In this document: piece by piece, positions 10,595 to 32,934 of the stretch
Layout: each line of letters opens with the position of its first letter
Position numbering within the stretch: the first letter of the stretch is position 1
Source: Pseudomonas sp. TMP9
Lineage (GTDB): Bacteria; Pseudomonadota; Gammaproteobacteria; Pseudomonadales; Pseudomonadaceae
Direction: 5' to 3'
Assembly (NCBI RefSeq): GCF_037943105.1
Contig: NZ_CP149803.1
Coordinates: forward strand, 3,018,001-3,082,000
Length of the DNA: 64,000 nucleotides
Position numbers and translations under genes: made by a program
Notes under the pieces: model-generated
The model's input: only the letters and a program-made list of their open reading frames with translations
The model's database searches: none
Told to the model about the DNA's origin: nothing

Positions 10595-10642
10595 GCGGCC
10601 ATATTGCTACTGAGGGCGGCGACTAAGCCGCCGCGTACCTAG

Positions 10643-12793: not shown

Positions 12794-12830
12794 GAGAATC
12801 ACCCTTATTTAAAAGAGTGGCGATTCTATT

Positions 12831-12845
12831 CGATAACTATTCTCA
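12831..12845 (-). promoter_or_regulatory. Fur box upstream of the TonB receptor
   Basis: On the minus strand the bases read TGAGAATAGTTATCG, which match 12 of 14 informative positions of the 7-1-7 Fur motif TGATAAT-N-ATTATCA. The site lies 38 bases before the receptor start codon, in an AT-rich stretch suited to a promoter. Iron-dependent repression is inferred from this and from the receptor family. Confidence 0.65.
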
Positions 12846-13103
12846 ATCAATAGTAATTTGCATGTTTATTCGCGTGAATTTCTCGTTAGCTCCGCTTCCC
12901 TCAGCGTGCAATCGCCCCTACTGCCGACCAGACCGCCTCAGGTCGGCCAACTTGGCCGGCGGCGCGAAAGCTGCGCACTTACTCAACGCCGCACCACGGC
13001 GAGTATCGTCATTACCGACCTGTGCAAACAATGAGTGGCCGCTCAAAAATTGCAGCACAAGCCGCCCAACTTGGCGCCAAACACAGGCTGGTTTAAGCAC
13101 TAA
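12846..13103. other. intergenic region, no gene seen
   Basis: About 260 bases between the Fur box and the end of the monooxygenase gene. I see no convincing coding frame. A short GC-rich palindromic stretch (GGTCGGCCAACTTGGCCGGC) is present near 12940-12960, without a T-tract. Confidence 0.5.
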
Positions 13104-14492
13104 TCAGCTGGCTACATCCCTCTTAGGTGTTTCTGCCACAACCGCATAGTCGTGGCTGAGGAAGTGCTCCAGCGAATCATCGAGAATTTCCAGCCACGGG
13201 GCTGGTAATTCGGGGGCGGCAGTCCCGGTGACGGTCGAGGTGTAGCAGTGGTTGCGGTAGCCCATGATGTCGGCCTTTTTGTCCTGCTTCCAGCGCTTGA
13301 ACAACTCGCCTTGGGCCTCGACAGCAAACTCGGGGTAGTCGGTCGGCTGCAACAAATCGCGCACATAAGCGGCTTGGAAGTCGATTTCCGCGCTGGCGTT
13401 TTTCAAGGCTTCTTCGCGGCCCAACCACGCCTGCATGTCCGCCTGCATCGCCGGTGCATCCGGCAAAGGAATTCGCCCCAGCATCACGTCGCGGGCATAC
13501 CAGGCTTGGGCGTCGAACATGTTGAAGGTGAAGTACTGGTCCTGCATACCGAGGTAGATCAACCGTGGGTTGCCCTCCCAGAAGATGCCCTTGTACAGGC
13601 TCTGCGGGTACAGCCGGTTATGGGTTTGCAGGCGCAAGTCGTCCGGCAAGAAGGGGAAGCTGTGCTGGTAGCCGGTGCAGAGAATGATCGCATCCACTGC
13701 TTTGCTGCTGCCGTCATTAAAATGCGCCACGTTGCCATCAAGGCGCTCCAGCAGCGGCACTTCAGTAATGCCGGCGGGCCAGTCGTAACCCATCGGCCTG
13801 GAGCGGTAGCTGAATGTCACCGACTTTGCACCGTATTTGTGGCATTGGGTGCCAATGTCTTCAGCCGAATAACTGCTGCCGACCAGCAGCAAGTCTTTGT
13901 CCTTGAACTCCAGCGCATCGCGGAAGTCGTGAGCATGCAGCACCCGCCCAGGAAAACGCTCGACGCCCGGGAAATATGGCACGTTCGGTGTGGAGAAGTG
14001 CCCAGTGGCGACCACCACGAAATCGAATTCTTCGGTGCAAAGCTGGTCGGTTACGTGGTCCATGACCGTGACGCTGAAGCGTTGCGTCTGTTCATCGAAG
14101 CTGACCCAACGCACGGCTGTTTCAAAGCGGATGTGCTGGCGCACATCGTTGCGCTCAATGCGCCCCATCACGTAGTTCTTCAGCACTTCACGCGGCGGGT
14201 AGGAGGGGATGGCGCGACCAAAGTGCTCATCGAAGGAGTAGTCGGCAAATTCCAGACATTCCTTGGGCCCGTTGGACCACAGGTAACGGTACATGCTGCC
14301 GTGCACCGGCTCACCGTGTTTATCCAGGCCGGTGCGCCAGGTGTAATTCCACATACCGCCGAGGTCACTCTGCTTCTCGAAACAGACGATTTCAGGCATT
14401 GCTTCATGCGCGGCAAGCTGAACGGAAACAAAAGATCGAAGTTGTGCGAGCCCGCTGGGGCCGGCCCCAAGAATAGCGATTTTCAGGGACAA
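13104..14492 (-). CDS. flavin-containing monooxygenase, trimethylamine monooxygenase (Tmm)-like
   Basis: FAD- and NADPH-dependent monooxygenase of 462 residues. The FAD motif GAGPSG is at residues 9-14, the FMO signature appears as FPGRVLHAHDF near residue 180, and the NADPH motif as LLVGSSYSAED near residue 205. Blocks such as WNYTWRTGLDKHGEPVHGSM, SNGPKECLEFADY and FNMFDAQAWYARDV closely resemble marine bacterial Tmm, which oxidises trimethylamine to its N-oxide. The start is a TTG at 14492, preceded by GGAG at 6-base spacing; an upstream TTG at 14504 would overlap that site. It stands alone, upstream of no other methylamine gene. Substrate could be trimethylamine, another amine or a sulfide. 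Confidence 0.88.
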   Translation of the reverse strand: MSLKIAILGAGPSGLAQLRSFVSVQLAAHEAMPEIVCFEKQSDLGGMWNYTWRTGLDKHGEPVHGSMYRYLWSNGPKECLEFADYSFDEHFGRAIPSYPPREVLKNYVMGRIERNDVRQHIRFETAVRWVSFDEQTQRFSVTVMDHVTDQLCTEEFDFVVVATGHFSTPNVPYFPGVERFPGRVLHAHDFRDALEFKDKDLLLVGSSYSAEDIGTQCHKYGAKSVTFSYRSRPMGYDWPAGITEVPLLERLDGNVAHFNDGSSKAVDAIILCTGYQHSFPFLPDDLRLQTHNRLYPQSLYKGIFWEGNPRLIYLGMQDQYFTFNMFDAQAWYARDVMLGRIPLPDAPAMQADMQAWLGREEALKNASAEIDFQAAYVRDLLQPTDYPEFAVEAQGELFKRWKQDKKADIMGYRNHCYTSTVTGTAAPELPAPWLEILDDSLEHFLSHDYAVVAETPKRDVAS

Positions 14493-16561: not shown

Positions 16562-18145
16562 ATGACCCTCCAGGCCGCCGAAGTCGCCAAACGCCGCACG
16601 TTCGCGATCATTTCCCACCCCGACGCCGGTAAAACCACCATTACCGAAAAGCTGCTGCTGATGGGCAAGGCGATTTCAATCGCGGGCACGGTAAAGTCGC
16701 GTAAATCCGACCGCCATGCCACCTCCGACTGGATGGAAATGGAAAAGCAGCGCGGCATCTCAATCACCACCTCGGTGATGCAGTTCCCTTACCGCGATCA
16801 CATGATCAACCTGCTCGACACCCCCGGCCACGAAGACTTCTCGGAAGACACCTACCGCACCCTGACTGCAGTTGACAGCGCCCTGATGGTGCTCGACGGC
16901 GGTAAAGGTGTGGAGCCGCGCACCATCGCCCTGATGGATGTATGCCGCCTACGCGACACGCCCATCGTCAGCTTTATCAACAAACTCGACCGCGATATTC
17001 GCGACCCGATTGAACTGCTCGACGAGATCGAAGCGGTACTGAAAATCAAAGCCGCGCCGATCACCTGGCCGATTGGCTGCTACCGCGACTTCAAGGGTGT
17101 TTACCACCTGGCTGATGACTACATCATCGTTTACACCCCAGGCCACGGCCACGAGCGCACCGATGTAAAAATCATCGAAAAACTCGACTCCGACGAAGCC
17201 CGCGCCCACTTGGGTGATGAGTACGCGCGCTTCACCGAGCAGCTGGAATTGGTGCAGGGCGCTTGCCATGAATTCAACCAGCAAGAGTTTATGGACGGCC
17301 AACTGACCCCGGTATTCTTCGGCACCGCGCTGGGTAACTTCGGCGTCGACCATGTGCTCGATGCCGTGGTCAACTGGGCACCTAAGCCGCTGGCACGGGT
17401 GGCCAATGAGCGTACCGTGGAGCCGGTTGAAGAAAAGTTCGCCGGCTTTGTGTTCAAGATTCAAGCGAACATGGACCCCAAACACCGCGACCGCATCGCC
17501 TTTATGCGCATCTGCTCGGGTAAATACAGCCAGGGCATGAAAATGCGCCATGTGCGCACCGGTAAAGACGTGCGCATCGGCGATGCGCTGACCTTCTTCT
17601 CCAGCGAACGTGAAATGCTCGTAGAAGCCTTCGCCGGCGACATCATCGGCCTGCACAACCACGGCACCATCCAGATCGGCGACACCTTCACCGAAGGCGA
17701 AGCGCTGGGCTTTACCGGCATTCCACACTTCGCGCCGGAGCTGTTCCGCCGTGTGCGCCTGAAAGACCCGCTGAAATCCAAGCAACTGCGCCAAGGCTTG
17801 CAGCAGCTGGCCGAGGAAGGCGCCACTCAGGTGTTCTTCCCCGAGCGCAGCAACGACATCATCCTCGGCGCGGTCGGCGTGCTGCAGTTCGATGTGGTCG
17901 CCAGCCGCCTGAAAGAGGAATACAAGGTCGAGTGCGCTTACGAGCCGATCACCGTGTGGTCAGCGCGCTGGATCGAATGCAGCGACAAGAAGAAACTGGA
18001 GGAATTTTCCAACAAGGCAGTGGAAAACCTTGCTCTCGATGGCGGCGGCCATCTCACCTACCTGGCGCCAACACGGGTTAACCTGGCGTTGATGGAAGAA
18101 CGCTGGCCCGACGTGAAATTCCGCGCGACGCGCGAGCACCATTAA
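16562..18145 (+). CDS. prfC: peptide chain release factor 3
   Basis: RF3 is the class II GTPase that recycles RF1 and RF2 from the ribosome after termination. The 527-residue product has the G1 loop SHPDAGKTT, switch [10 protein letters not shown], and NKLD as G4. Length fits the family. The open frame reaches upstream to 16493, but the ATG at 16562 gives the expected start [17 protein letters not shown]. The gene is monocistronic here; a CCCTCTCCCGC hairpin 38 bases after the stop may act as terminator. Confidence 0.96.
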
Positions 18146-19539: not shown

Positions 19540-19887
19540 TTAGTGGCTAATCATCCAGGGCCTTGCGCTGGGCTTGGTCTTAAGCGCATGGGGGTTTGCC
19601 TTGGTGGGTTCCAGGGGTTTGTTCGGGGTGCAGCAACCACAGCCTTTCGGGTGTTTGCGGCTCTGCGCATATTCTTCAACCGTCTGCGGCGCATTGGCGC
19701 TGCGCTCGTTGGCGGCGATGGCCGTGCGTTGACTGCCCGACATGGTCGCCAGGCTCGGTGCAGTGAGAATCACCCGCACACTTTGCCCGTCGCACCAGGG
19801 GCAACTACAGGGTTGGTCTCGCTCGGCCATAGGCCGCAGCTGGGTAAAGTCGCCACAGGTGGCGCAGTCGTATTCATAAATCGGCAT
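19540..19887 (-). CDS. fmdB: FmdB family zinc-ribbon protein
   Basis: 115-residue protein with the FmdB zinc ribbon: MPIYEYDCATCG with Cys8 and Cys11, then Cys29 and Cys32 in CSCPWCDG. A second cysteine cluster (KGCGCC) lies in the tail. The ATG at 19887 follows GAGGAG at good spacing; the frame opens 10 codons earlier without support. In Methylophilus methylotrophus FmdB is encoded with formamidase and is thought to regulate it. Here it follows fmdA by 65 bases, which contain a short CTCTCTC/GAGAGAG hairpin. Role as regulator or accessory factor is inferred from that precedent. Confidence 0.88.
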   Translation of the reverse strand: MPIYEYDCATCGDFTQLRPMAERDQPCSCPWCDGQSVRVILTAPSLATMSGSQRTAIAANERSANAPQTVEEYAQSRKHPKGCGCCTPNKPLEPTKANPHALKTKPSARPWMISH

Positions 19888-19952
19888 GGCAAACTCCTCA
19901 TCAAAAAAGCACAACAACCTCTCTCCCGCGTACGAGAGAGATGTGACAAGGC

Positions 19953-21182
19953 TTACTTATCGGGGGCGATAGGCAAGTCGATGCTGCCGTCGAGGAACTT
20001 GGTCGGGCCGTTGGCGTTGGGGTTGATGTCAAAGTCGAAGATTTCCGTCGGCAGCCACAGGGTGGCGCAAGCATTGGGGATGTCGACGATGCCGCTGATA
20101 TGCCCTTGCACCGGGGCCGAGCCGAGCAGCGCATAACCTTGAGCCGGCGAGTAGCCGAACTTAGTCAGGTAGTTGATGGCATTCAGGCAGGCCTGTTTGT
20201 AGGCGATATTGACGTCGAGGTAATGCTGCTTACCAGCCTCGTCCACCGAGATGCCTTCGAAGATCAGGTAATTTTTGTAGTTCGGCGTGATCGGGCTTGG
20301 CTTGAATACTGGGTTTTTGATCCCGTATTTGGCCATGCCGCCTTTGATCAGCTCGACTTTCATGTGCACCCAGCCGGCCATTTCGATGGCGCCGCAGAAG
20401 GTGATTTCACCGTCGCCCTGGCTGAAGTGCAGGTCACCTACCGACAGACCCGCGCCGTCAACGTAGACCGGGAAGAAGATCTTCGAGCCGCGCGACAAAT
20501 CCTTGATGTCGCAGTTACCGCCATGCTCACGCGGCGGCACGGTGCGCGCGCCGGTCAGTGCAGCCAGGTCGCGGGCCTCGCCTTTCATCTTGCCCATGTG
20601 CGCAGTCGGAGCCATCGGTGGATTGGCCAGCGGCGGCACGCGGTGCGGATCGGTATCGATCAATTCCTGCTCACGCTTGTTCCAGTCGGCGAGCATCTTG
20701 TGATCTGGCAGGCAGCCGATCAGACCGGGGTGGATCAAGCCGGCGAAGTTCACCCCCGGAATATGCCGACTACTGGTGAACATGCCCTTGAAGTCCCAAA
20801 TCGCTTTCTGCGCCATCGGGAAGTGATCGGTCAGGAAGCCGCCACCATTCTGCCGCGAGAAAAAGCCGTTGAAGCCCCACTGCGAGTCAGGCATGGCGCC
20901 AATGTCGAGCAGGTCGACCACCAGCAGGTCGCCGGGCTGAGCGCCGTGCACACCAACCGGGCCGGAGAGGTAATGCACGGTCGACAGGTCAACGTCGCGC
21001 ACGTCACTGGCATCATCGTTGTTCTTGATCGCGCCAGCGGTCCAGTCATAGGTTTCGAGGATGAAATCGTCACCCGGTTTGACCCAGCAGGCCATCGGAA
21101 TATCCGGATGCCAGCGGTTGTGGATCTGCTCGTTGTGCGTGGCAGGTTGATTTAAATCGACCTTGATTAGCGTTTCGGTCAT
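19953..21182 (-). CDS. fmdA: formamidase
   Basis: 409-residue acetamidase/formamidase family enzyme that hydrolyses formamide, and less well other short amides, to formate and ammonia in the cytoplasm. Family blocks seen include HNRWHPDIPMACWVKPGD, GPVGVHGAQPGDLLVVD, HPGLIGCLPD, REHGGNCDIKDL, YVDGAGLSVGDLHFSQGDGE and the C-terminal KFGYSPAQGYALLGSAPVQG. It starts at an ATG after an AGGAG site. It is downstream of urtE but separated by 279 bases containing a REP element and its own inverted-repeat operator candidate at 21271. It probably therefore has its own promoter. The urtABCDE importer upstream would supply amide or urea. Confidence 0.95.
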   Translation of the reverse strand: MTETLIKVDLNQPATHNEQIHNRWHPDIPMACWVKPGDDFILETYDWTAGAIKNNDDASDVRDVDLSTVHYLSGPVGVHGAQPGDLLVVDLLDIGAMPDSQWGFNGFFSRQNGGGFLTDHFPMAQKAIWDFKGMFTSSRHIPGVNFAGLIHPGLIGCLPDHKMLADWNKREQELIDTDPHRVPPLANPPMAPTAHMGKMKGEARDLAALTGARTVPPREHGGNCDIKDLSRGSKIFFPVYVDGAGLSVGDLHFSQGDGEITFCGAIEMAGWVHMKVELIKGGMAKYGIKNPVFKPSPITPNYKNYLIFEGISVDEAGKQHYLDVNIAYKQACLNAINYLTKFGYSPAQGYALLGSAPVQGHISGIVDIPNACATLWLPTEIFDFDINPNANGPTKFLDGSIDLPIAPDK

Positions 21183-21270
21183 GACAAAGCTCCTGGGGCC
21201 ATTGAGGGGAACGTGGCGCCACAGCGCCGGGGTACGGAGCTAGTCTTGAACGACCAAGACAAACGGGAAA

Positions 21271-21286
21271 TACGTCGGATGACGTA
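21271..21286 (-). promoter_or_regulatory. candidate operator upstream of fmdA
   Basis: Inverted repeat TACGTC-GGAT-GACGTA, centred 96 bases before the fmdA start. The same TACGTC-N4-GACGTA palindrome occurs upstream of urtA at 26592-26607. A weak -10 candidate (AAGACT on the minus strand) lies about 32 bases downstream of the centre. A second small palindrome, GTCTTG-N6-CAAGAC, occupies 21243-21260. The site suits a dimeric LuxR-type regulator such as the one encoded at 30144. Confidence 0.65.
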
Positions 21287-21391
21287 TGCCCAGCACGCAT
21301 AAATAAAGGGCGACAGGGCTTTTTGCGGCACAACGAAAAAACGGCCAGCGTATGGAGAACACGCCAGCCGCAAAACAGGGAATCCAAACCG

Positions 21392-21450
21392 TAGCCCGGA
21401 TGTAAGCCGGGGCAGATTCAACATCCGTCCCGGATTGCATCCGGGCTACA
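21392..21450. repeat. REP-like inverted repeat, copy 2
   Basis: GTAGCCCGGATG (21392-21403) and CATCCGGGCTAC (21439-21450) form 12-bp perfect arms with related internal blocks. It lies just downstream of urtE and upstream of fmdA. Confidence 0.8.
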
Positions 21451-21461
21451 TGGGTGCGCCA

Positions 21462-22151
21462 TCACACCGACAGGTAACGGCTGATCGTCGCCTCATCGAC
21501 CTTGTCGCGAGTTTCCTCCACCACGAACTTACCCTTCTCAATCACCAAGAAGCGGTCGGCGATTTCCAGGGTGAAGGACAGCACCTGCTCGGAGACCACA
21601 ATGGTCAGGTCACGCAGGTTACGAATCTCCTTCAGGGTGCGGGCGATGTCTTTGATGATCGATGGCTGAATGCCCTCGGTCGGCTCATCGAGCAGCAGCA
21701 CCTTGGGGTTGGTGGCCAACGCACGGGCGATGGCCAATTGCTGTTGCTGGCCACCGGAGAGGTTGCCGCCCTTGCGTGAGCGCATGTCCTGCAGCACCGG
21801 GAACAGCGCATAAATATCATCCGGCACCTTGCCCTTGGCCGACGCGGGCAAGCCGGTCTGGATGTTTTCCAGCACCGTCATGCTAGGGAAGATCATCCGA
21901 CCCTGGGGTACATAGGCGATGCCGCTTTCCACCCGCTGAAACGTTTCCAGCGTGGAGATATCGCGACCGTCCACACTGATCTGCCCGCCCCACTGCGGCA
22001 GCACACCCATCAGGCTCTTGAACAGGGTGGTTTTACCCATGCCATTACGGCCCATTACCGCGACGATCTCGCGCTTTTCCACATTCAGGCTGAGGTCGTG
22101 GAGGATCTGACTCTGGCCGTAGCCAGAGGCAAGGTTGCTGATCTGGAACAT
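21462..22151 (-). CDS. urtE: urea/amide ABC transporter ATP-binding protein UrtE
   Basis: 229-residue LivF-type ATPase of the urea/short-chain amide importer. Walker A is GRNGMGKTT, the signature LSGGQQQQLAIARAL, and Walker B LLLDEPTEGIQ. The TEGIQPSII sequence is typical of UrtE. The ATG at 22151 gives the family start MFQISNL; 12 further upstream codons are open but unsupported. A 67-base repeat element separates it from urtD although both are in the same direction. Confidence 0.93.
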   Translation of the reverse strand: MFQISNLASGYGQSQILHDLSLNVEKREIVAVMGRNGMGKTTLFKSLMGVLPQWGGQISVDGRDISTLETFQRVESGIAYVPQGRMIFPSMTVLENIQTGLPASAKGKVPDDIYALFPVLQDMRSRKGGNLSGGQQQQLAIARALATNPKVLLLDEPTEGIQPSIIKDIARTLKEIRNLRDLTIVVSEQVLSFTLEIADRFLVIEKGKFVVEETRDKVDEATISRYLSV

Positions 22152-22174
22152 ATGCGTCACTCCAATACAGTCCG

Positions 22175-22241
22175 GTAGGGTGGGCAATGCTTCGCTTGCC
22201 CACCGCAGCGGTGGAAATGCCGGCGGCGATTTCCACCCTAC
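22175..22241. repeat. GTAGGGTGG repeat with alternative hairpins between urtD and urtE
   Basis: GTAGGGTGG (22175-22183) pairs with CCACCCTAC (22233-22241). Two inner stems, TGGGCAA/TTGCCCA (22181-22187, 22196-22202) and GGTGGAAA/TTTCCACC (22210-22217, 22230-22237), overlap the outer arms, so the outer and inner folds partly exclude each other. It looks like a dispersed extragenic repeat inserted within the operon. Confidence 0.7.
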
Positions 22242-22250
22242 AAACAGGGC

Positions 22251-23012
22251 TCAATGCCCCAGATACACCTCAATGACTTTCGGATTGCTCTGCACCGCCT
22301 CCATGCTGCCCTCGGCCAATACCTTGCCCTGGTGCAGCACGGTGACCTTGTGCGCGATGCTCTTAACGAATTCCATGTCGTGCTCAATCACCAACACCGA
22401 ACGGCCCTTGCTGATGCGGTTAAGCAGCTCGGCAGTCTGCGCCCGCTCGTTGACACTCATGCCGGCGACCGGCTCATCGAGCATCAGCAGCGCGGGGTCT
22501 TGCATCAGCAGCATGCCGATCTCCAGCCATTGCTTCTGCCCGTGCGAGAGCAGGTCTGCCTGCAGGTGCAAGTTGTCGGTGAGCATGATCTCGGCGGCGA
22601 TCTGCTCTACCCGTTCGATCACTTCGGCCGTGCGCTTGAAAAACAGCGCGCCCCATACCTTGCGGCCCTTGGGGTAGGACATTTCCAGGTTCTCGAACAC
22701 CGTGAGGTTTTCGTAGATCGAGGGGTTCTGGAACTTGCGGCCAACGCCGGCACGAACGATGTCGAACTCGCGCATCTTGGTCAGTTCGCGGTTCTCGAAC
22801 TGAATGCTGCCGGTGGTGGCTTTGGTCTTACCGCAGATCAGGTCAAGCAAGGTGGTCTTGCCGGCGCCATTGGGGCCAATCACCACACGCACTTCGTTGC
22901 GATCGATATACAGGTTGAGATCATCGACAGCCTTGAACCCATCAAACGATACACTCAGGCCCTCGACAGCCAGCACCGGCTTGGGCATATGAAATCCACT
23001 TGGCTGGCTCAT
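22251..23012 (-). CDS. urtD: urea/amide ABC transporter ATP-binding protein UrtD
   Basis: 253-residue LivG-type ATPase, partner of UrtE. Walker A is GPNGAGKTT, Walker B ALLMLDEPVAGM, and the signature region is the UrtD-typical LSHGQKQWLEIGMLL. The segment FQNPSIYENLTVFENLEMS is also characteristic. Its start overlaps the urtC stop by 4 bp (ATGA). The complex would energise import through UrtB and UrtC at the inner membrane. Confidence 0.94.
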   Translation of the reverse strand: MSQPSGFHMPKPVLAVEGLSVSFDGFKAVDDLNLYIDRNEVRVVIGPNGAGKTTLLDLICGKTKATTGSIQFENRELTKMREFDIVRAGVGRKFQNPSIYENLTVFENLEMSYPKGRKVWGALFFKRTAEVIERVEQIAAEIMLTDNLHLQADLLSHGQKQWLEIGMLLMQDPALLMLDEPVAGMSVNERAQTAELLNRISKGRSVLVIEHDMEFVKSIAHKVTVLHQGKVLAEGSMEAVQSNPKVIEVYLGH

Positions 23013-24181
23013 AGGGTGGTCTCCAGGTTACGTGGTTGACTGCTGGGATCAGGGTTTTCAGGCGGCGTCGTGGGCGTGGCGACTGGGGCAGGTGTGCGCT
23101 TAAGCTTGCCCAGCCATTTGACGCCGTGGCTTTGCCACACGCCGGCGATACCGTTGGGGAAGTACATGACCACGACAATAAACAGACCGCCCATCAGGTA
23201 CAGCCACAGCTCGGGGAAGGTTTCGGAAAAGTAGGTCTTGCCGTAGTTGACCAGCAGCGCGCCCCACACCGCACCAAGCAGCGACATGCGCCCGCCGACC
23301 GCCGCGAAGATCACCATCTCAATCGACGGCACGATGCCGACGAAGCTCGGTGACATAAAGCCCACCTGCAAGGCGAACATCGCCCCACCAATCGCAGAGA
23401 AGGCGGCGGCCACACAGAACACGAAGATCTTGAAGCTGGCCACGTCGTAGCCGGAAAAACGCACGCGCTCTTCCTTGTCACGCATGGCCATCAGCAGCCG
23501 CCCCAACTTGGAGGCGAGGATGAAGCGGCCAATCAGGATGCAGCCGAACAATAGGAAGGCATTGACGAAGTACAGAATCATCTTCGAACTATCGTCGCGG
23601 ATATCCCAGCCCATCAGCGTCTTCAGGTCGGTGATGCCGTTGACCCCGCCGGTGAGGCCCTGCTGACCGATGATCAGCACCGTGAGAATCAGCGCGATGG
23701 CCTGGGTGACGATGGAGAAGTACACATCACCGACGCGGCGTTTGAACATCGCCACGCCGATCACTAATGCCAGGATCACCGGCACTGCTATCACCGCCAG
23801 CAAGGTGAAACCGAAGCTGTGGAACGGCTGCCAGAGCATGGGCAGCTCAGTGATCTGGTTCCAGTCCATAAAGTCTGGAATACCGGGGGTGGACTGAATC
23901 TTGGTGCTTTCCGGGTCGCTGGCTTCAAGCTTGAGGAACATGGCCATGCAGTAACCGCCGAGGCCGAAGAACACGCCCTGGCCGAGACTGAGAATGCCGC
24001 CATAGCCCCAGCACAGCACCAAACCAACGGCGACGAAGGCGTAGGTCAGGTACTTACCCACCATGTTCAGGCGGAAGGCATCCAGCGCCAGTGGAAACAC
24101 CACCAGGATCAGCACGGCCAACACCAGCATGCCAATCGCACCCTGTTTGCCACCGAGAAGTTTATCGAGTGTCGGGTTCAT
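23009..24181 (-). CDS. urtC: urea/amide ABC transporter permease UrtC
   Basis: 390-residue LivM-type permease with about ten hydrophobic segments. Family motifs include LCWGYGGILSLGQGVFFGLGGYCMAMFL near residue 60 and the cytoplasmic EAA-like loop AMRDKEERVRFSGYDVASFK. A proline-rich tail of about 35 residues follows the last helix. It follows urtB by 11 bases and overlaps urtD. The permease forms a heterodimer with UrtB. Confidence 0.94.
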   Translation of the reverse strand: MNPTLDKLLGGKQGAIGMLVLAVLILVVFPLALDAFRLNMVGKYLTYAFVAVGLVLCWGYGGILSLGQGVFFGLGGYCMAMFLKLEASDPESTKIQSTPGIPDFMDWNQITELPMLWQPFHSFGFTLLAVIAVPVILALVIGVAMFKRRVGDVYFSIVTQAIALILTVLIIGQQGLTGGVNGITDLKTLMGWDIRDDSSKMILYFVNAFLLFGCILIGRFILASKLGRLLMAMRDKEERVRFSGYDVASFKIFVFCVAAAFSAIGGAMFALQVGFMSPSFVGIVPSIEMVIFAAVGGRMSLLGAVWGALLVNYGKTYFSETFPELWLYLMGGLFIVVVMYFPNGIAGVWQSHGVKWLGKLKRTPAPVATPTTPPENPDPSSQPRNLETTL

Positions 24182-24192
24182 CAGACGGCTCC

Positions 24193-25110
24193 TTACTTAC
24201 GCACCTTGATGGAGAACAGCCCCTGGGGGCGCATCATCAGAATCAGAATCACCGCAGACAGGGTGAACACTTTGGCCATCGAACCGCTCATGAAGAACTC
24301 CATCAGCGATTGCGCCTGGGCAATGCTGAAGGCAGAAGCGATGGTGCCGAGCAAGCTGGACGCGCCGCCGAACACCACCACCAAGAAGGTGTCAACGATG
24401 TACAGCGAACCTGCCGTTGGCCCAGTCGAACCGATGGTGGTGAACGCTGCACCGGCCACGCCAGCTACACCGCAACCGAGGGCGAAGGTCATGCGGTCGA
24501 CCTTCTTGGTGTTGATCCCCACCGCGCGGCTCATCACCCGGTTCTGCACCGTGGCTCGCACCTGCAAACCCCAGCGCGAGCGGTAGAGCATGATGAAGAT
24601 CATGGCGGTCATGAGGAACGTCAGACCCATAACGAACAGGCCATTGCGCGGAATATCGATGGCCTCGGTGGGGTTCCACGAGCCCATTAGCCAATCCGGC
24701 AAGGTGGCGCTGACTTCACGGGCGCCGAAGATTGAGCGGAAGCCCTGCTGCATCACCAGCGACAGGCCCCAGGTGGCCAGCAAGGTATCCAGCGGGCGCT
24801 GGTAAAGCTTGCTGATCATGGCCCATTCGACGAGCCAGCCAATCGCACCGGCGATAAAAAACGACAGCACGATGGCGAGAAAAAAATAATACGGGCCAAA
24901 AAACGGCGCGTATTGCTCAGTCAAAATCGAAACCACATAGGTGGTGTAGGCGCCGATGGTGAGGAATTCACCGTGGGCCATGTTGATCACACCCATCTGC
25001 CCGAAAATGATTGCCAGCCCCAAGGCCATCAGCAACAGGACGCAGAAAACGGACAAGCCGTTAAAGCCCTGCATAGCCGCGATGGCACCAAACTCCGATA
25101 GCCATTCCAT
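24193..25110 (-). CDS. urtB: urea/amide ABC transporter permease UrtB (short form)
   Basis: 305-residue LivH-type permease. Hydrophobic segments and the loop QNRVMSRAVGINTKKVDRMTFALGCG are typical, as is the early motif FGQMGVINMAHGEFLTIGAY. The ATG at 25110 (MEWLSEFG) is preceded by GCAGGAGACC; the frame opens 20 codons earlier but without support. Many Pseudomonas UrtB proteins carry a long N-terminal periplasmic extension; this one lacks it. That fits FmdE/amide-type transporters better than dedicated urea importers. Confidence 0.93.
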   Translation of the reverse strand: MEWLSEFGAIAAMQGFNGLSVFCVLLLMALGLAIIFGQMGVINMAHGEFLTIGAYTTYVVSILTEQYAPFFGPYYFFLAIVLSFFIAGAIGWLVEWAMISKLYQRPLDTLLATWGLSLVMQQGFRSIFGAREVSATLPDWLMGSWNPTEAIDIPRNGLFVMGLTFLMTAMIFIMLYRSRWGLQVRATVQNRVMSRAVGINTKKVDRMTFALGCGVAGVAGAAFTTIGSTGPTAGSLYIVDTFLVVVFGGASSLLGTIASAFSIAQAQSLMEFFMSGSMAKVFTLSAVILILMMRPQGLFSIKVRK

Positions 25111-25244
25111 GATGATGGTCTCCTGCTGGAATAAAAAAGAAAGGTCAGGCCGGGCTGGCAGCGTCCGCATTCAAGGCGCTCTCTGCCAGTTAGCAGGCGC
25201 ACCCTGATGAGTACGCCTGCTGTTGGATCCGGCCTAAGCCGCTG

Positions 25245-26474
25245 TTACTGGTAGCCCTTAGGGAAAGGGTTTGGCTCGATCAGGTCGGATTCGAAGACCA
25301 CCTTGAACTGGCCATCAGCTTGCACCTGGCCAATGCGGGTCTTGCTCCACAGGTGATGGTTTTCATGAACCTTGACGTAGCCTTCAGGGGCGGTGGTCAG
25401 CTCAATGCCTGGGGAAGCGGCGGCGACCTTGTCGACGTCAAAGCTGCCGGCTTTCTCAACCGCGGCTTTCCACAACCATGGGCCAAGGTAGGCCGCCTGA
25501 GTTACATCGCCGATGACCGAATCCTGGCCGTACTTGGCTTTGAAGGCTTCAACAAACGCGGCGTTGTTGGGGTTGTCGAGGCTCTGGAAGTACTTCATGG
25601 AGGCGTAAAAACCTTCCATATTCTCGCCGCCAATGCCCAGCAATTCGTCCTCAGTCACCGACAAGGTCAGCAGGGTCTGCTTAGCGCTGTTCACGCCAGC
25701 CGCTTTCATCTGCTTGTAGAACGCCACGTTGGAGCCGCCCACTACAGCGGTGAAGACCACGTCAGGCTTCTTCAGCTTGACCTTGTTGATCAACGAACCG
25801 AACTGGGTGTTGCCCAGCGGGTAGTAGTCCTCGCCGACAACCTTGCCACCGAGCACATTCTCGATGTGCTTACGCGCGATCTTCATCGAGGTGCGCGGCC
25901 AGATATAGTCAGAGCCAATCAGGTAAAAGGTTTTGGCTTCCTTCTCTTTAGCGATCCAGTCGAGGCCCGCTAGGATCTGCTGGGTGGCTTCCTGACCGGT
26001 GTAGATGACATTCTTCGACTGCTCCAACCCTTCATAAAAAGTTGGGTAGTAAAGCAAACCGTTTTCTTTCTCGAATATCGGCAGCACCGCTTTGCGTGAG
26101 GCCGAGGTCCAGCAACCAAATACGGCCGCTACCTTGTCGCCAACCAACAGCTTCTTGGCTTTTTCGGCAAAAGTTGGCCAATCGGAAGCGCCGTCTTCCT
26201 GAATGATTTTGATCTGCCGGCCGAGGATGCCGCCACTGGCGTTGATCTGCTCAATGGCCAGACGCTCAGCCTGGATCGAGCCGGTTTCGGAAATAGCCAT
26301 GGTGCCCGTGGCCGAATGCAGCTGGCCAACCGTCACCTCCGTATCGGTGATGGCCAGGCCGGTGGTATTAACGTCCGCCACAGCCATCTGGCTGAACACA
26401 CTGGCCGCCAGCAGCGAGAGCGCCGCAGCACCCAACGCTAGCCGACGAGGGAGAAAGCGAGTTGGTGAATCCAT
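25245..26474 (-). CDS. urtA: urea/short-chain amide ABC transporter substrate-binding protein
   Basis: 409-residue periplasmic binding protein of the UrtA/FmdD/AmiC group. A signal peptide is visible (MDSPTRFLPRRLALGAAALSLLA... ending AVA before DVNTTG). The mature part carries family blocks VGQLHSATGTMAISE, GCWTSASRKAVLPIFEKENGLLYYPTFYEG, IGSDYIWPRTSMKIARKH and VGEDYYPLGNTQF. Two ATGs lie 6 bases apart (26480 and 26474). I chose the second because GGAG is 7 bases before it and only 1-2 bases before the first. A 134-base gap separates it from urtB. The ligand may be urea, formamide or acetamide; the adjacent formamidase favours an amide. Confidence 0.93.
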   Translation of the reverse strand: MDSPTRFLPRRLALGAAALSLLAASVFSQMAVADVNTTGLAITDTEVTVGQLHSATGTMAISETGSIQAERLAIEQINASGGILGRQIKIIQEDGASDWPTFAEKAKKLLVGDKVAAVFGCWTSASRKAVLPIFEKENGLLYYPTFYEGLEQSKNVIYTGQEATQQILAGLDWIAKEKEAKTFYLIGSDYIWPRTSMKIARKHIENVLGGKVVGEDYYPLGNTQFGSLINKVKLKKPDVVFTAVVGGSNVAFYKQMKAAGVNSAKQTLLTLSVTEDELLGIGGENMEGFYASMKYFQSLDNPNNAAFVEAFKAKYGQDSVIGDVTQAAYLGPWLWKAAVEKAGSFDVDKVAAASPGIELTTAPEGYVKVHENHHLWSKTRIGQVQADGQFKVVFESDLIEPNPFPKGYQ

Positions 26475-26565
26475 GGTCATGCTCCTCTGGGTGGTTTTCC
26501 TCCCCGGCTCACCTTGCGGCTGCCAGTTCGGTTCGCCACCAGCATCGTTGCTCACCTCCCAAGGC

Positions 26566-26571
26566 GGTATA
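26566..26571 (-). promoter_or_regulatory. -10 candidate for urtA
   Basis: Minus-strand TATACC, centred 31 bases downstream of the palindrome centre and 92 bases upstream of the start codon. No good -35 is present, as expected for an activator-dependent promoter. Confidence 0.35.
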
Positions 26572-26579
26572 CGCAGGTT

Positions 26580-26608
26580 GACGTAACGGCCTACGTCATC
26601 TGACGTAG
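26580..26608 (-). promoter_or_regulatory. candidate operator upstream of urtA
   Basis: CTACGTCATCTGACGTAG at 26591-26608 has 8-bp perfect arms and contains the TACGTC-N4-GACGTA motif also found before fmdA. An additional GACGTA half-site lies at 26580-26585, 22 bp (two helical turns) from the GACGTA at 26602-26607. The region is shared with the divergent kinase gene, so the site could also act on that promoter. Confidence 0.65.
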
Positions 26609-26764
26609 CGCTTTGCGCCCCATGGCGGTGCAGGATCACGCCCGCAGAGCATGCTCTGACCCCTGATAAGAACCGCGACCGCGCAAGAGCGGCCTATACC
26701 GACTTAGGGCATGGATGTTGCAAATTCATACACCTGTATTAACTGCGACTCAGGAGTCTTTCCC

Positions 26765-29700
26765 GTGCAACCGACCGGCACTCAGCGCATCGTTAAGATC
26801 CGCCGCGACTACAACAGCTGGGTCGCTGACGAAACCATGGAAGACTACGCCCTGAGGTTTACTCCCAAGTCGTTTCGCAAGTGGTCCGAACTGCGCATCG
26901 GTAATACTGCTTTGAGTGCGGTGTCATTTCTTGCATTGGAGGCGATCGGCGGTGCCTTAGCGCTGAGTTACGGCTTCACCAATACGCTGTGGGCCATTCT
27001 CGCGGTGAGCTTGGTGATTTTCCTTACTGGCCTACCGATCAGCTACTACGCCGCCCGTTATGGCGTGGATATGGACCTGCTGACCCGTGGTGCGGGCTTC
27101 GGCTATATGGGCTCGACCATCACCTCGCTCATCTATGCCAGCTTCACCTTTCTATTTTTCGCCCTTGAGGCGGCGATCATGGCCCTGGCCCTAGAGATGT
27201 ATTTCAACATCCCCTTGGCGCTGGCCTATGTGATCTGTTCGGTGATCATCATTCCGCTGGTGGCCTACGGCATTACGCTTATCAACCGATTACAAATGTG
27301 GAGCCAGCCACTTTGGCTGTTTCTGCTGTTTCTGCCCTACGTATTCATCATCAGCAAAAACCCTGAAGCCTTCAGTGAATGGACCACCTTTGCCGGGCGC
27401 GAAGGCGAAGGTGGCGCCTTTAACCTGCTGCATTTCGGCGCGGCATGCACCGTGGCCTTAGCACTGGTCACGCAGATCGGCGAGCAGGTCGACTACCTGC
27501 GTTTCCTGCCAGAAAAAACCTCGCGTAATCGCAAGCGCTGGTGGGCGGCGCTGCTGATGGCCGGTCCCGGCTGGATCATCCCTGGCGCGTTGAAAATGCT
27601 CGCTGGAGCCTTTCTCGCCTTTCTCGCCCTGCAGCATGAAATACCCATGGAGCATGCAGCCGAACCGACGCAGATGTACCTGGTGGCGTTCACCTATGTG
27701 TTCAGCTCGCCTGAGTGGGCGCTGGCGGCCATGGTTCTGTTTGTTATCGTCAGCCAAATCAAGATCAATTTGACTAACGCCTATGCCGGCTCGCTGGCGT
27801 GGTCAAATTTCTTTGCCCGCGTCACCCACAGTCACCCCGGACGTGTGGTGTGGCTGGTGTTCAACGTGGCCATCGCCTTGATTTTGATGGAGCTGGGCGT
27901 GTTTCAGGCGATCGAGGAGGTGCTCGGTCTGTATGCCAATATTGCCATTGCTTGGATCGGTGCAGTGGTCGCCGACTTGGTGATCAATAAACCGCTAGGG
28001 CTGTCACCCAAACACATCGAATTCAAGCGGGCACACCTCTACGACATCAACCCCGTGGGCGTTGGCGCCATGCTGATTGCCTCTTTGTTATCGGTCTTAG
28101 CCCACGCCGGACTATTCGGCCAGCTAGCCCAAGCCGCATCGCCGGTTGTCGCGTTGGGCTCGGCGATGCTATTTGCACCCCTGATTGCCTGGTTGACCGG
28201 TGGCCGTTACTACCTAGCCCGCAGCAGTGACCCGTTACTGCTGTACCCACTCGGCGTCACCACCACTGTGGATTGCGGCCTGTGCAGCAACGCCTTTGAA
28301 ACCGAAGACATGGCCTTCTGTCCGGCTTACAGCACACCCATTTGCTCGCTGTGCTGCTCACTTGATGCCCGTTGTGATGATGCCTGCAAACCACAGGCAC
28401 GTATGTCTGAACAGCTTGACGAGCTTATTCACTGGCTGTTTCCCAGGGTCTCAATTCCACGCTTGCACAGTCGCTTGGCGCAATATCTGGGCCTGCTGAC
28501 TGTACTGATGCTGCTGTTATTCGGTGCCTTAGCGCTGATCTATAGCCAGATCTCCCAAGGCTTGGTGGCGCAATCCCCAGAGGCGCAGGAGACTCTTTAC
28601 CTGGAGTTTCTCAAAGCCTTCCTGACGCTCTCATTGTTCGCCGCTATTCTTGCTTGGTGGGTGGTTTTAACCCGCGAAAGTAGACGTGTGGCGCAAGAAG
28701 AATCCGATCGCCAGACCCAACTGTTGATGCAAGAAATCGAAGCCCACCGGAAAACTGACGAAGCCTTACAGAAAGCCAAGGAAGCCAGTGAGGCGGCTAA
28801 CGCGGCAAAAAGTCGCTATGTCACCGGGTTGTCGCATGAGCTGCGCACGCCGCTCAACAGCATCCTCGGCTACACCCAGATTCTGCAACGTGATGCCGAC
28901 ATGCCCGGGCAGCACAAAGATGCTCTGGGCACCATCTTTCGCAGCGGCTCGCACCTGCTGGCGCTGATCGATGGGCTGCTCGATGTGGCCAAGATTGAGG
29001 CTGGCAAACTCAACCTAGAACCGAGCGAAATCCCCTTTCCAGAATTTATTCACCAGCTTGAACGTATGTTTACCCCGCAGGCCGAAGAAAAGGGCCTGCG
29101 CTTTCGCCTGGACATAAGCGGGCGCATGCCGGCGGTGGTTCGCGGCGATGAAAAGCGCGTACAGCAAATTCTGATCAACCTACTCGGCAATGCGGTGCGC
29201 TTCACTGACAGCGGCGAAGTCTGCCTGCGCGTCAGCTACCTACGCGAAACCGCCAGTTTCGAAATCGTCGACACCGGTATAGGCATCGATCCAGAGCAGA
29301 TGGAGCGGCTCTTTCAACCCTTCGAGCGCGGCGACCTGATGCGCCAAGATAATGGTGTCGGTCTCGGCTTGACCATTACGCGCATGCTGACCTCCTTGAT
29401 GGGCGGTGAACTGTCGGTAAAAAGCGTGTTGCATCAGGGCACCCGCTTTCAGGTCCGCCTGTTCCTCTCCGAGGTGCGGGTGCCTCAAGCGGTGGTGCAT
29501 GTGGAACACGACATTATTGGCTACCAAGGTTCGCGCCGAAGGATCCTCGTGGTGGACGACCACATCGAACACCGCCGCGTACTGGCCGGTATGCTCGAGC
29601 CACTGGGTTTCGAGATTATCCAGGCCGCCAGCGGTCAGGAAGCGATTCGCCAAACGGCCCTGCTTCACCCTGACTTGATCCTGATGGACCTGTCGATGCC

Positions 29701-30163
29701 CTTAATGGATGGCTGGGAAACCAGCCGACTGATACGCCGCAATGCTATGTCCCACGCTCCGATCATCGTGATCTCTGCCAACGCCTTTGCTGATGACCGT
29801 GAACGCAGCGTGGCGTCGGAATGCAACGACTACTTGGCTAAGCCAGTGCACACGCCGGAGTTACTCGAGCGTATCCACAAGCACCTTGCGCTTAAGTGGT
29901 TGCGGCGCTCAACACCACGGCCAAAACCAGCCCCTGCAGTTTCCGTGTTGCCAAGTGCCAGCGATCTCGACGCATTGCGCGAACTTGGAGCTCTTGGCTA
30001 CATCCGAGGCATACAGGAGAAACTCGATGCCATTGATCAGCTAACGCCCGCCAGCGTCAGTTTCACTGCGCCCCTAAGAGCCTTGGTGAAAGGCTACCGC
30101 TTGGACGAATTTAACCGCCAACTCAAGGAGGTCGAGCATCACTATGCAGATCAATCCACCTGA
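26765..30163 (+). CDS. hybrid histidine kinase with N-terminal NCS1-type permease domain
   Basis: Membrane-bound hybrid sensor of 1132 residues. Residues about 30-485 look like an NCS1 (cytosine/purine/allantoin) permease with about twelve hydrophobic segments and a family-like IGEQVDYLRFLP block. A cysteine-rich stretch follows (eight Cys between 504 and 541, including CGLC and CSLCC). Then come two membrane helices (about 572-594 and 616-637), a coiled linker, HisKA with His691 in SHELRTPLN, an ATPase domain (N box near Asn809, DTGIGI at 836), and a receiver with Asp975 and Lys1026. No clear HPt domain follows. The GTG at 26765 has AGGAG 8 bases upstream; an ATG at 26711 lacks this. It is divergent from urtA and overlaps the response regulator gene. 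The signal may be an amide, urea or their flux; this is inference. Confidence 0.9.
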   Translation: MQPTGTQRIVKIRRDYNSWVADETMEDYALRFTPKSFRKWSELRIGNTALSAVSFLALEAIGGALALSYGFTNTLWAILAVSLVIFLTGLPISYYAARYGVDMDLLTRGAGFGYMGSTITSLIYASFTFLFFALEAAIMALALEMYFNIPLALAYVICSVIIIPLVAYGITLINRLQMWSQPLWLFLLFLPYVFIISKNPEAFSEWTTFAGREGEGGAFNLLHFGAACTVALALVTQIGEQVDYLRFLPEKTSRNRKRWWAALLMAGPGWIIPGALKMLAGAFLAFLALQHEIPMEHAAEPTQMYLVAFTYVFSSPEWALAAMVLFVIVSQIKINLTNAYAGSLAWSNFFARVTHSHPGRVVWLVFNVAIALILMELGVFQAIEEVLGLYANIAIAWIGAVVADLVINKPLGLSPKHIEFKRAHLYDINPVGVGAMLIASLLSVLAHAGLFGQLAQAASPVVALGSAMLFAPLIAWLTGGRYYLARSSDPLLLYPLGVTTTVDCGLCSNAFETEDMAFCPAYSTPICSLCCSLDARCDDACKPQARMSEQLDELIHWLFPRVSIPRLHSRLAQYLGLLTVLMLLLFGALALIYSQISQGLVAQSPEAQETLYLEFLKAFLTLSLFAAILAWWVVLTRESRRVAQEESDRQTQLLMQEIEAHRKTDEALQKAKEASEAANAAKSRYVTGLSHELRTPLNSILGYTQILQRDADMPGQHKDALGTIFRSGSHLLALIDGLLDVAKIEAGKLNLEPSEIPFPEFIHQLERMFTPQAEEKGLRFRLDISGRMPAVVRGDEKRVQQILINLLGNAVRFTDSGEVCLRVSYLRETASFEIVDTGIGIDPEQMERLFQPFERGDLMRQDNGVGLGLTITRMLTSLMGGELSVKSVLHQGTRFQVRLFLSEVRVPQAVVHVEHDIIGYQGSRRRILVVDDHIEHRRVLAGMLEPLGFEIIQAASGQEAIRQTALLHPDLILMDLSMPLMDGWETSRLIRRNAMSHAPIIVISANAFADDRERSVASECNDYLAKPVHTPELLERIHKHLALKWLRRSTPRPKPAPAVSVLPSASDLDALRELGALGYIRGIQEKLDAIDQLTPASVSFTAPLRALVKGYRLDEFNRQLKEVEHHYADQST

Positions 30164-30836
30164 CCAAAGTCCCAGCCCAGCAGAGCGCGGGGTGATCCTA
30201 ATCGTCGATGACACACCGGACAACTTGGCCCTGCTCTCTGATGCGCTGGACGAAGTAGGCTATATGGTACTGGTAGCGCTGGATGGCTTGAGCGCCCTAA
30301 GCCGTATCCAGCGCCGACGCCCCGACCTTATTCTGCTGGATGCAATGATGCCCGGGCTGGATGGCTTCGAGACCTGCCAGCGAATCAAGGCTGACCCTGG
30401 CTCCGCTGATATCCCAGTGCTATTCATGACCGCACTGACTGACAGCGAGCATGTGGTCAAAGGCTTCGCGGCCGGCGGCATTGATTACGTAACCAAACCG
30501 ATCAACACCGAGGAAGTACTTGCCCGGGTGGCCTCGCACTTGCGCACCGCACGCATCCTGCAAACAGCACGAGCGGCCAGCCAAGCACAACCGCTGACGC
30601 TCAACGACCAACCAGCCCATGCCATGCTCTCAGCGCGCTTTCAGCTTACCGGGCGCGAAGTAGACGTATTGCGCTGGGTGGCTTGCGGCAAAACCAACCG
30701 AGATATTGGCGATATTCTCGGCCTCAGCCCGCGCACAGTGAACAAACATTTGGAGCACGTTTACATCAAACTCGGGGTCGAAACCCGCACAGCGGCCACC
30801 TCAGTTGCACTCTCAGCGATGGCCGAGCGCGCTTGA
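30144..30836 (+). CDS. LuxR-family response regulator
   Basis: 230-residue regulator with a receiver domain (acidic pair Asp22-Asp23, phosphorylation site Asp66 in LLLDAMMPG, Lys118 in TKPI) and a LuxR/FixJ helix-turn-helix at about residues 165-225 (LTGREVDVLRWVACGKTNRDI...SPRTVNKHLEHVYIKLGV). Its start lies inside the end of the kinase gene (20-bp overlap), so they are almost certainly co-translated partners. Candidate target sites are the TACGTC-N4-GACGTA palindromes before urtA and fmdA. Confidence 0.93.
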   Translation: MQINPPDQSPSPAERGVILIVDDTPDNLALLSDALDEVGYMVLVALDGLSALSRIQRRRPDLILLDAMMPGLDGFETCQRIKADPGSADIPVLFMTALTDSEHVVKGFAAGGIDYVTKPINTEEVLARVASHLRTARILQTARAASQAQPLTLNDQPAHAMLSARFQLTGREVDVLRWVACGKTNRDIGDILGLSPRTVNKHLEHVYIKLGVETRTAATSVALSAMAERA

Positions 30837-30903: not shown

Positions 30904-32934
30904 TCAGACGCGGAACGCGCTGATCAGCTGTTTCAACTGTGCCACCGAACCAGACAGCTCGCGACTGGCCTGCTCGGTATGGCTGGCACCTTCGGCGGTG
31001 CGCTCACCCGCCTGGCTGATCTCAACAATGTTCTGGTCGATATCGTGGGCCACGGCCGTTTGCTCTTCGGCGGCCGTGGCGATTTGCTGGTTCTGGTCAA
31101 CAATCATGCCGACTGCGCCGAGGATATTCTCCAGCGCCTGCTGCACCTTGTCAGATTCACTCACCGTGTTGTCTGCCATTTTGTGACTGGAACTCATCGA
31201 CTTAACCGCCGCGCCTACACCGCTTTGCAGCTTAGCGATCATTGCCTCAATCTCTTGGGTGGACTGCTGAGTGCGCTTAGCCAAATTGCGCACCTCATCG
31301 GCGACCACGGCAAAACCGCGCCCCTGCTCACCCGCTCGGGCGGCCTCGATGGCAGCGTTTAGCGCCAGCAAGTTGGTCTGCTCGGCAATGCCCTTAATCA
31401 CATCCAGCACCTGACTGATCGAGGCGCTGTCAGTGGCCAGCTTGTTAATCACCGTCATGGACTGGTCAATTTCCCCAGCTAAACGCTGGATGCTACCCAC
31501 TTGCAACTCAACCAGTGCGCGGCCGCTGACCGTTTCATCATTAACACTCTGCGCGCTGCTCACCGCCGCGGCAGCACTGCTCGCCACTTCCTGAGCGGTT
31601 GCCGACATTTCATTCATGGCCGTGGCCACTTGATCAATCTGCCCGCGCTGGCCCGCTACCGCTTGGTTACTTTCCTCGGAAACCTGCTGCACCCGAACGG
31701 CTTGACGCTCAACTTCAACCACCGTCTGACCGACGCGTTCAATCAACTGGTGAATCTTACTCACCGTTTCATTAAAGACTTGGCCCAGCTCGCCCAGTTC
31801 ATCGCGGCTTTGCGGCTTGAAGCTGACCGTCATGTCGCCGGCAGCCACCTGGTTCATCACCTGACCAAGGCTTTTAAGCGTGGTGCGGATCGACACATAG
31901 AAGCCGCCATACAGATAGAGAATCAGCAGAAAAACCACCAACAGAGCCGCTACCAGCAGCGCCATCTGCACGCGGTTCTCTTCCAAACGCACCTGCAATC
32001 GCTTATCGAGGTACGCCAGCACAGCGCTATTGAGCTCATAGGTTTGCGCCATTGCCGCACTGACGTCGCTGTAGTACTGCGCCCACGGCATGTCCAGCGT
32101 GTCGGCGATTACCACTTTGTCCTCAAACAAGACCGCCATGGTTTTTAACGTATCCAAGCTGCTTGCTGCTTGGCCGGCCAACTCGGTGCGAGCCTGTGGG
32201 CTGGCATTGAGCGTGGCTTGCAAACTCAAACCGTACTCGGCGTGGAGCTTTTCCAAGTCCAACAACAGCTCATCAAAAGTGGTGCTGGATGCGGAGTTAA
32301 GGAAGCCCTGGCCTAACGAGTAGGCACCGATTGCCCGCCCTTCACTCAGCGCCTCAGTGACCTTCGGCGTGGCCACGCTGATCAGCTCAATCATCTGCCG
32401 CACTGAGCCCTGACGGTCTTGGCTCAAACCGGCTTGGCTGGCGATCAGCTTGATAAACACTTGCGAGGAACCCAGCAGTTTTTCCGCTAAGGCGATTTTG
32501 CCTTGCACGGACGACTCGTTTTGCACGGCCGCCAGCTCGGCGATCAGTTCATCGCGCTTGGCATTGAACTCATCAACCTGTTCCGCTTCGCGGACCACCG
32601 CCGCCATGCCCTGCAGCGAGCTGGCAATGGTTTTGTGAAGGGTCGCCGCGCGCGCATCAAGATCACCCGCCTGACCGGACTGGCCGATCACTGAGTTGAT
32701 CTCGCTTAAGTCGACAAAGTCTTCAATGTTGCGCCGCAATGTCAGGCTTTCGCCCAGCAGATCAATGCTCTCAAGCGCCGCCTGAGTGCTGACAAATTGT
32801 CGGTAGGAGTCTCGTACGAGATAGAAATTGGTGACCAGCATGGGCAGAAAAAACAGCACGCTGATCAAACTGAATTTCATGCCGAAACTAAGGCGATTCA
32901 TCAGCACAATGGCCGGATACAACACGGTCTTCAC
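30904..32934 (-). CDS. methyl-accepting chemotaxis protein
   Basis: 676-residue transmembrane chemoreceptor. The first membrane helix is at about residues 18-40, a long helical periplasmic sensor spans about 45-320, and the second helix is around 325-345. HAMP follows ([17 protein letters not shown]), then the signalling domain with the hairpin tip sequence near [21 protein letters not shown] and [16 protein letters not shown]. The ligand-binding domain is a mostly helical bundle I cannot assign to a ligand. No CheR-binding pentapeptide is seen at the C-terminus (ISAFRV). From memory a chemotaxis transducer sits between speC and ampE in P. aeruginosa too. Confidence 0.93.

Follow-up and report, generated by a model that had tools for sequence, protein, structure and literature searches.

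Sensor kinases that carry a whole transporter as their input domain are known, and only a small number of transporter-fused receptors have received study. CbrA and CrbS/MxtR are sensor kinases fused to an SLC5 transporter and a STAC domain (PMC13022988, PMC7918813, PMC9100948), and an ammonium sensor kinase of Kuenenia stuttgartiensis is fused to Amt (PMC5764959). Here we analyse a 64,000-nucleotide stretch of the Pseudomonas sp. TMP9 genome (NZ_CP149803.1, positions 3,018,001 to 3,082,000; hereafter the window), in which a hybrid histidine kinase with an NCS1-like permease domain, together with its LuxR-type partner regulator, is divergent from urtABCDE-fmdA-fmdB. We consider it probable that this kinase is a transporter-type receptor that senses an amide or urea and controls urt and fmdA through the LuxR-type regulator. 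A first-pass annotation of the window had named CbrA as a known transporter-fused kinase.

One described control system for amide uptake and hydrolysis genes is AmiC/AmiR, which governs aliphatic amidase and pairs a periplasmic-binding-type ligand sensor with an RNA antiterminator (PMC13209695). Related gene clusters are also partly in print: Pseudomonas veronii Yu15, which grows on formamide, has a urt-amiE-fmdA-fmdB cluster (PMC13209695), and in Ectopseudomonas guguanensis G3 genes for a hybrid kinase and a LuxR regulator adjoin a second urt operon (PMC13296017). The accessible portions of these two papers mention neither a permease domain nor a cysteine linker nor a DNA site, and in the main text of PMC13209695 the term two-component does not occur and kinase appears in one unrelated passage. 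Full-text searches of open-licence papers turned up no account of a receptor kinase of NCS1 type, of the eight-cysteine linker or of the palindrome reported below.

Results

An NCS1-like domain fused to a hybrid histidine kinase

The kinase gene (26765..30163, plus strand) encodes 1132 amino acids from GTG 26765, which we take as the most likely start because AGGAG lies eight bases 5' of it and the product matches the 1132-residue database protein; an alternative upstream start is ATG 26711, from which residues are numbered here. The C-terminal part contains HisKA (28805..29005, residues 699-765, phosphoacceptor His709), HATPase_c (29144..29467, residues 812-919) and REC (29543..29875, residues 945-1055, Asp993) domains, the complement of a hybrid histidine kinase. 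The gene for the response regulator (30144..30836, plus strand) overlaps the 3' end of the kinase gene, and its product combines a REC domain (PF00072, Asp66) with a GerE helix-turn-helix (PF00196), as in LuxR/NarL-type regulators. The open reading frames confirm the strands and the overlap given by the first-pass annotation. Among the matches listed, the nearest relatives of the kinase are from Pseudomonas.

The N-terminal multi-helix membrane domain (26822..28234, residues about 38-508) is NCS1-like by profile comparison, predicted fold and an intermediate Pfam match. Its predicted fold is nearest to CodB and Mhp1, with CHT1 (23.1), DUR3 (22.2) and SMCT1 (21.5), which we take to be SLC5-type chains, far lower, at least 12 Z units below CodB; the domain thus has the NCS1 fold and not that of an SLC5 membrane domain. 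The window kinase itself has no match to PF02133 at E<=10, its score lying below the Pfam cut-off, and for that reason we file the domain as a divergent NCS1-like branch and not as an ordinary member. A relative with 48% identity exceeds the PF02133 cut-off, and 2 of 44 alignment members match the model at E<=0.01. The proposal of an N-terminal NCS1-type permease is borne out by fold, profile comparison and an intermediate relative, and the refuting outcome named at first pass, an N-terminal part that matches no permease family, did not arise.

With stand-alone permeases the module shares 43-46% identity, with the other NCS1-type proteins found only 23-29%, and in members outside Pseudomonadaceae the permease part is 55-72% identical along its length. 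Six residues (Q255, E258, Q259, K351, N353 and N356) are invariant across 44 sensors and stand-alones. At the aromatic positions of CodB, W108 in TM3 corresponds to F149, still aromatic, and F204 in TM6 to an invariant L252; the TM6 mapping is uncertain, as the profile alignment has a gap there and the residue was located by counting backwards from the DYxRF/DFxRF motif, which does align. The TM6 aromatic is described as conserved throughout NCS1 (PMC9379551). By chained alignment, K351 and I352 occupy the positions of the hydroxyl-bearing Thr residues of the CodB Na2 site.

Beyond the permease domain and a cysteine-rich linker lies a two-helix hydrophobic hairpin (28463..28678, residues about 585-656), defined from predicted secondary structure and sequence, which presumably spans the membrane and is predicted to continue as a single long helix up to the phosphoacceptor domain.

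The sensor adjoins genes for urea and short-amide use

All genes of the divergent operon lie on the minus strand: urtA, for the substrate-binding protein (25245..26480, start near 26474-26480; TIGR03407, 535.4 against a cut-off of 492.75), urtB (24193..25170; TIGR03409), urtC (23009..24181; TIGR03408), urtD (22251..23012; TIGR03411), urtE (21462..22187; TIGR03410), fmdA, for formamidase (19953..21182; NF045496, 761.5 bits against a cut-off of 500; PF03069), and fmdB, for a zinc-ribbon protein (19540..19917; TIGR02605, NF053663). The five Urt subunits, FmdA and FmdB all exceed their NCBIfam cut-offs, and the divergent arrangement claimed at first pass holds. Linked as it is to formamidase, this Urt importer could carry amides. 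Residues 11-125 of FmdB also match the NCBIfam RPWMISH domain model. A 27-nucleotide inverted repeat (21391-21449, 85% complementary, 5 nucleotides between arms) lies in the urtE/fmdA gap. After the regulator follows a large minus-strand open reading frame (30904-32934), on sequence reading a putative methyl-accepting chemotaxis protein, whose relatives stand near the cluster in several other loci.

Two sets of loci were compared, gene presence being scored at identity cut-offs of 28-45% and 35% coverage: a first set with the best 80 of 339 loci from named genomes, window included (two are titled as Gammaproteobacteria metagenome-assembled genomes), and a second set of 75 members in 73 fetched loci from other genomes, in which L163 has no member and L187 and L188, with two members each, are counted twice. 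Throughout the first set the association is close: urtA is present in 79 of 80 loci, always divergent from and upstream of the kinase and in 78 within 800 bp (the miss, L004, begins 24 bases before the match), fmdA is present in 66, and the regulator directly follows the kinase in 79 (the miss, L002, is a cut contig). The second set has urtA with 54 members, fmdA with 41, urease genes with 16 and amidase-like genes with 21; 66 of the 75 have at least one of these in their fetched flanks, so the kinase does not occur mainly away from amide or urea genes, and the regulator is directly downstream in 67.

The kinase occurs with urt and fmdA, with urt and ureD/ureC, or with ureC in the absence of urt. 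UreD follows urtE in L173, L178, L190 and L197, UreC is found in L182 and L199, a nitrilase-type amidase in L150, and on a Klebsiella plasmid, where the same kind of sensor is divergent from urtA, a 335-residue gene named formamidase follows urtE. The enzymes that the sensor stands beside in these contexts act on urea or on short amides and are unrelated to one another. In three urease-linked clusters (L173, L178 and L197) urtB encodes 540-566 residues compared with 325 in the window, and urtA is only 36-39% identical; judged by these sequences, two Urt types are served by one sensor family. We also observed, in L150, an AAA (ClpX/ClpB-like) ATPase gene (16804-17874) between the nitrilase-type amidase and fmdA, and, in L231 (K. 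pneumoniae pKpQIL_pKPN, 4852-14324), a sensor relative, urtABCDE and a gene named formamidase on a conjugative plasmid with resistance genes.

Co-occurrence across genomes, in counts that ignore relatedness, follows the same pattern. Among 398 genomes of the phylum the kinase family is present in 52, fmdA in 40 and both in 39, so that the kinase accompanies fmdA in 39 of 40 fmdA genomes and fmdA accompanies the kinase in 39 of 52 kinase genomes, the association that the first-pass annotation had proposed to survey; in the class the family occurs in 17 of 369 genomes. In 57 relatives the kinase family (at least 53% identity) is present in 10, fmdA in 9 of these 10 and nowhere else, and urtA of at least 79% identity in the same 9 genomes as fmdA. 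The region-based locus counts draw on the hits of these three surveys except for seven same-genus genomes among the 57 relatives, a number that does not include the window's own.

A candidate regulator site upstream of urtA and fmdA

Alignment of the kinase-urtA interval of 80 loci revealed a palindrome with a second, imperfect copy 22 bp on. In the window the first box (26592..26607) is an exact TACGTCA-N2-TGACGTA, the imperfect box lies at 26570..26585, 22 bp from it start to start, and a further box with one mismatch (21271..21286) precedes the start of fmdA by about 90 bases; the inverted repeat of the urtE/fmdA gap is upstream of this last box. In the 3.75-Mb single-contig host genome, the palindrome with at most one mismatch occurs at two places only, the kinase-urtA interval and upstream of fmdA; the two-mismatch pattern shows no excess over control in the same genome.

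The placement recurs in other loci. At 13 or more of 14 matches, the 80 loci (1.62 Mb) contain 92 sites, of which 77 lie between kinase and urtA, 14 upstream of fmdA and a single one elsewhere (L050), which lies upstream of urtA, 84 bases before its first aligned residue. The corresponding 31 counts in other genomes divide into 23 kinase-urtA, 5 fmdA and 3 elsewhere, and these three (L211, L212 and a second count in L188) likewise lie upstream of urtA, at 118-176 bases from its first aligned residue. A looser form, TACGY-N6-RCGTA, falls within upstream windows, which make up some 7-8% of the bases, in 198 of 200 cases for the first set and 48 of 54 for the second; five of the six sites outside these windows were inspected (L145, L204, L210, L211 and the strong-site neighbour in L212), and four are 103-169 bases upstream of the first aligned urtA residue. 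Among the 57 relatives the exact site is present in 8, namely 7 of the 10 kinase genomes, with one copy each between kinase and urtA, and 1 of the 47 without the kinase (G051).

NarL, a regulator of the same helix-turn-helix class, recognizes a 7-2-7 site arrangement. The partner regulator may bind the palindrome, and the presence of the site upstream of both urtA and fmdA supports a common regulon for the two.

A conserved eight-cysteine linker

The linker between permease domain and hairpin (28274..28387, residues 522-559) has the pattern CxxC-x11-C-x7-CxxCC-x5-C-x3-C. It has no Pfam match in the window kinase and appears in predicted models as a Cys-rich region of beta/short-helix type. Its eight cysteines rank with the best conserved positions anywhere in the protein, at 99-100% of 78 members (the window, four first-set loci and, from L143 onwards, the non-edge members with at least 40% identity). 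For two fused queries all eight are kept in 239 of 240 relatives among the matches listed (the best 120 of at least 8000 scored for each), and for a stand-alone query the first four-Cys set alone is kept in 119 of 120 among the matches listed (the best 120 of 4949). Since fused proteins keep eight cysteines and stand-alones only the first four, the pattern suggests that the linker carries two metal sites, the second of which would be linked to signalling. It may resemble a binuclear treble-clef or cross-brace zinc finger, in which eight metal ligands form two interleaved sets. Relatives of the stand-alone query occur in 533 plasmid records, 342 of them named Klebsiella.

Reuse of the module and stand-alone relatives

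The permease-Cys module is elsewhere fused to GGDEF-EAL, PP2C-type or HPt-bearing outputs. In the neighbourhood of the L195 protein (the best 120 of at least 8000, by Pfam annotation and not as a census), 59 relatives carry GGDEF and/or EAL, 50 kinase domains, 8 PF07228 (PP2C/SpoIIE type) and 3 no annotated output; some of the kinase-type relatives bear HPt (PF01627). The L195 protein itself (6852-10526) joins the module to PAS-GGDEF-EAL, and its fetched flanks showed neither urea nor amide genes. L170 and L207 have shorter kinases, which to judge by length and sequence lack a REC, each followed by a REC-HATPase protein and near fmdA.

In a 66-row tree, whose outgroup branches are very long, the fused receptors group together (46 rows, SH-aLRT 99) and 14 stand-alones form a separate starred clade; the L187 stand-alone falls unresolved between the clades. 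Six stand-alone contexts were inspected: three are in urease clusters (Acinetobacter, Klebsiella and L199), two beside fmdA (Moraxella osloensis and L187), and the Streptomyces copy is near neither. In L187 a stand-alone permease with eight Cys is encoded divergently from the kinase-regulator pair; its gene leads directly into fmdA-fmdB and occupies the usual position of urtABCDE, as if permease and Urt were interchangeable there.

These arrangements raise a broader possibility, which we advance tentatively and hold to fall somewhat short of an even chance: a large uncatalogued receptor class built on an NCS1-like urea/amide-binding module, of common stock with the stand-alone permease of the Acinetobacter and Klebsiella urease operons, to which a second four-Cys metal site was added. 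This module would since have been joined to kinases, with or without HPt, to GGDEF-EAL proteins and to PP2C-type phosphatases, and the stand-alones would then be an unrecognised urea/amide transporter family within the NCS1 fold family.

Discussion

Proposed mechanism and alternatives

In the scheme that we favour, the NCS1 domain would itself sense the amide by binding a small amide or urea, formamide and urea being the most likely ligands. The resulting conformational change would be relayed through a two-metal, probably zinc, cytoplasmic knuckle and the transmembrane hairpin to the kinase, and phosphate would pass via the REC domain to the LuxR regulator. This regulator, presumably an activator rather than a repressor, would then bind the box and switch on urtABCDE for uptake and fmdA for hydrolysis to ammonia and formate.

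Several observations weigh against this scheme. Ligand binding, phosphotransfer and DNA binding are predictions from sequence and models. Of the 14 first-set loci that lack fmdA, six are cut contigs, and the other eight are full-length and keep urtA and urtE, so fmdA is not obligatory; of the 9 second-set members without any expected neighbour, seven are on stretches shorter than 16 kb, while L195, with its GGDEF-EAL output, and L196 are not. The strong site is found at the kinase in only 20 of 54 urtA-bearing second-set members and upstream of only 14 of 66 fmdA genes in the first set and 5 of 41 in the second; the looser form is present in 39 of 75 second-set members. For this regulator the site is moreover a candidate, since this urtA type accompanies the site just as both accompany the kinase.

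Other readings of the input domain must be set beside these points. As has been proposed for CbrA with histidine, the domain might still transport amide or urea, and the kinase might report flux or the transport cycle and not occupancy; nothing of a transporter fold is missing from the domain, its invariant residues are common to sensors and stand-alone permeases, and CbrA is a transporter-kinase with histidine transport shown (PMC7918813). A dedicated ABC importer is nevertheless encoded next door, so that a second transporter is not needed, and K351/I352 at the Na2 hydroxyl positions argue against sodium coupling of the CodB type; we regard flux sensing as unlikely, albeit the most serious of the alternatives. 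The regulon may instead be correct and the ligand another, such as a cyanate-, guanidine- or ureide-like nitrogen compound or a general nitrogen signal. The sensor family adjoins urease, FmdA-type formamidase and nitrilase-type amidases, to all of which the ligand may be common or upstream, and some sources call relatives purine-cytosine or allantoin permeases (the JGI label for some is signal transduction histidine kinase/purine-cytosine permease-like protein). The most frequent identified metabolic neighbours are nevertheless urea or short-amide enzymes, and replacement of the TM6 aromatic by L252, subject to the uncertain mapping, speaks against a stacked nucleobase, which leaves a different ligand rather improbable.

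That the eight-Cys knuckle is the true sensor, of metal availability or redox (for instance nickel or zinc for the urease and formamidase pathways), with the permease as anchor or minor input, appears to us very unlikely. Such a role would suit the near-complete retention of the cysteines and their presence with several output types, but the permease is conserved outside Pseudomonadaceae far beyond the needs of an anchor, and the first four cysteines, present also in stand-alones, look structural. We therefore retain an amide- or urea-sensing NCS1 domain as the preferred reading.

Comparison with known systems

Transporter-fused receptors as a kind are already known, and the gene cluster is partly in print. 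What the present analysis adds to the first-pass annotation is the linker with its eight Cys, the fusion of the module to further kinds of output, the stand-alones in urease operons and the DNA site. The family provides natural controls (stand-alones with one Cys set, fused proteins with two, and several outputs on one input module), and two boxes with two target genes make a ready assay. It also predicts that Pseudomonas and other Pseudomonadota possess a receptor for formamide and urea use, and points to a substrate for urease-operon permeases now named allantoin or cytosine permease.

The clusters of P. veronii Yu15 and E. guguanensis G3 are of the same kind as that of the window. Like AmiC/AmiR, the window system would control amide uptake and hydrolysis genes; unlike it, it is a membrane two-component system. 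From CodB and Mhp1 (PMC9379551) the permease domain differs in its low identity (about 17%), in the replacements of the TM3 Trp, the TM6 Phe/Trp and the Na2-site Thr given above, and in the added C-terminal Cys knuckle and signalling domains. With the Kuenenia Amt-kinase it shares a transporter domain as nitrogen-compound receptor fused to a kinase, although the transporter there is Amt and here NCS1, and the accessible part of that abstract (PMC5764959) mentions no Cys linker. The resemblance to CbrA and CrbS/MxtR is that a single chain controlling nutrient use unites a complete secondary transporter, a small linker domain and a histidine kinase. The window kinase departs from both in its NCS1-like rather than SLC5 domain, in an eight-Cys linker that apparently replaces the four-helix STAC, in the hydrophobic hairpin after the linker, and in a LuxR-type output regulator with urt and fmdA as its predicted target.

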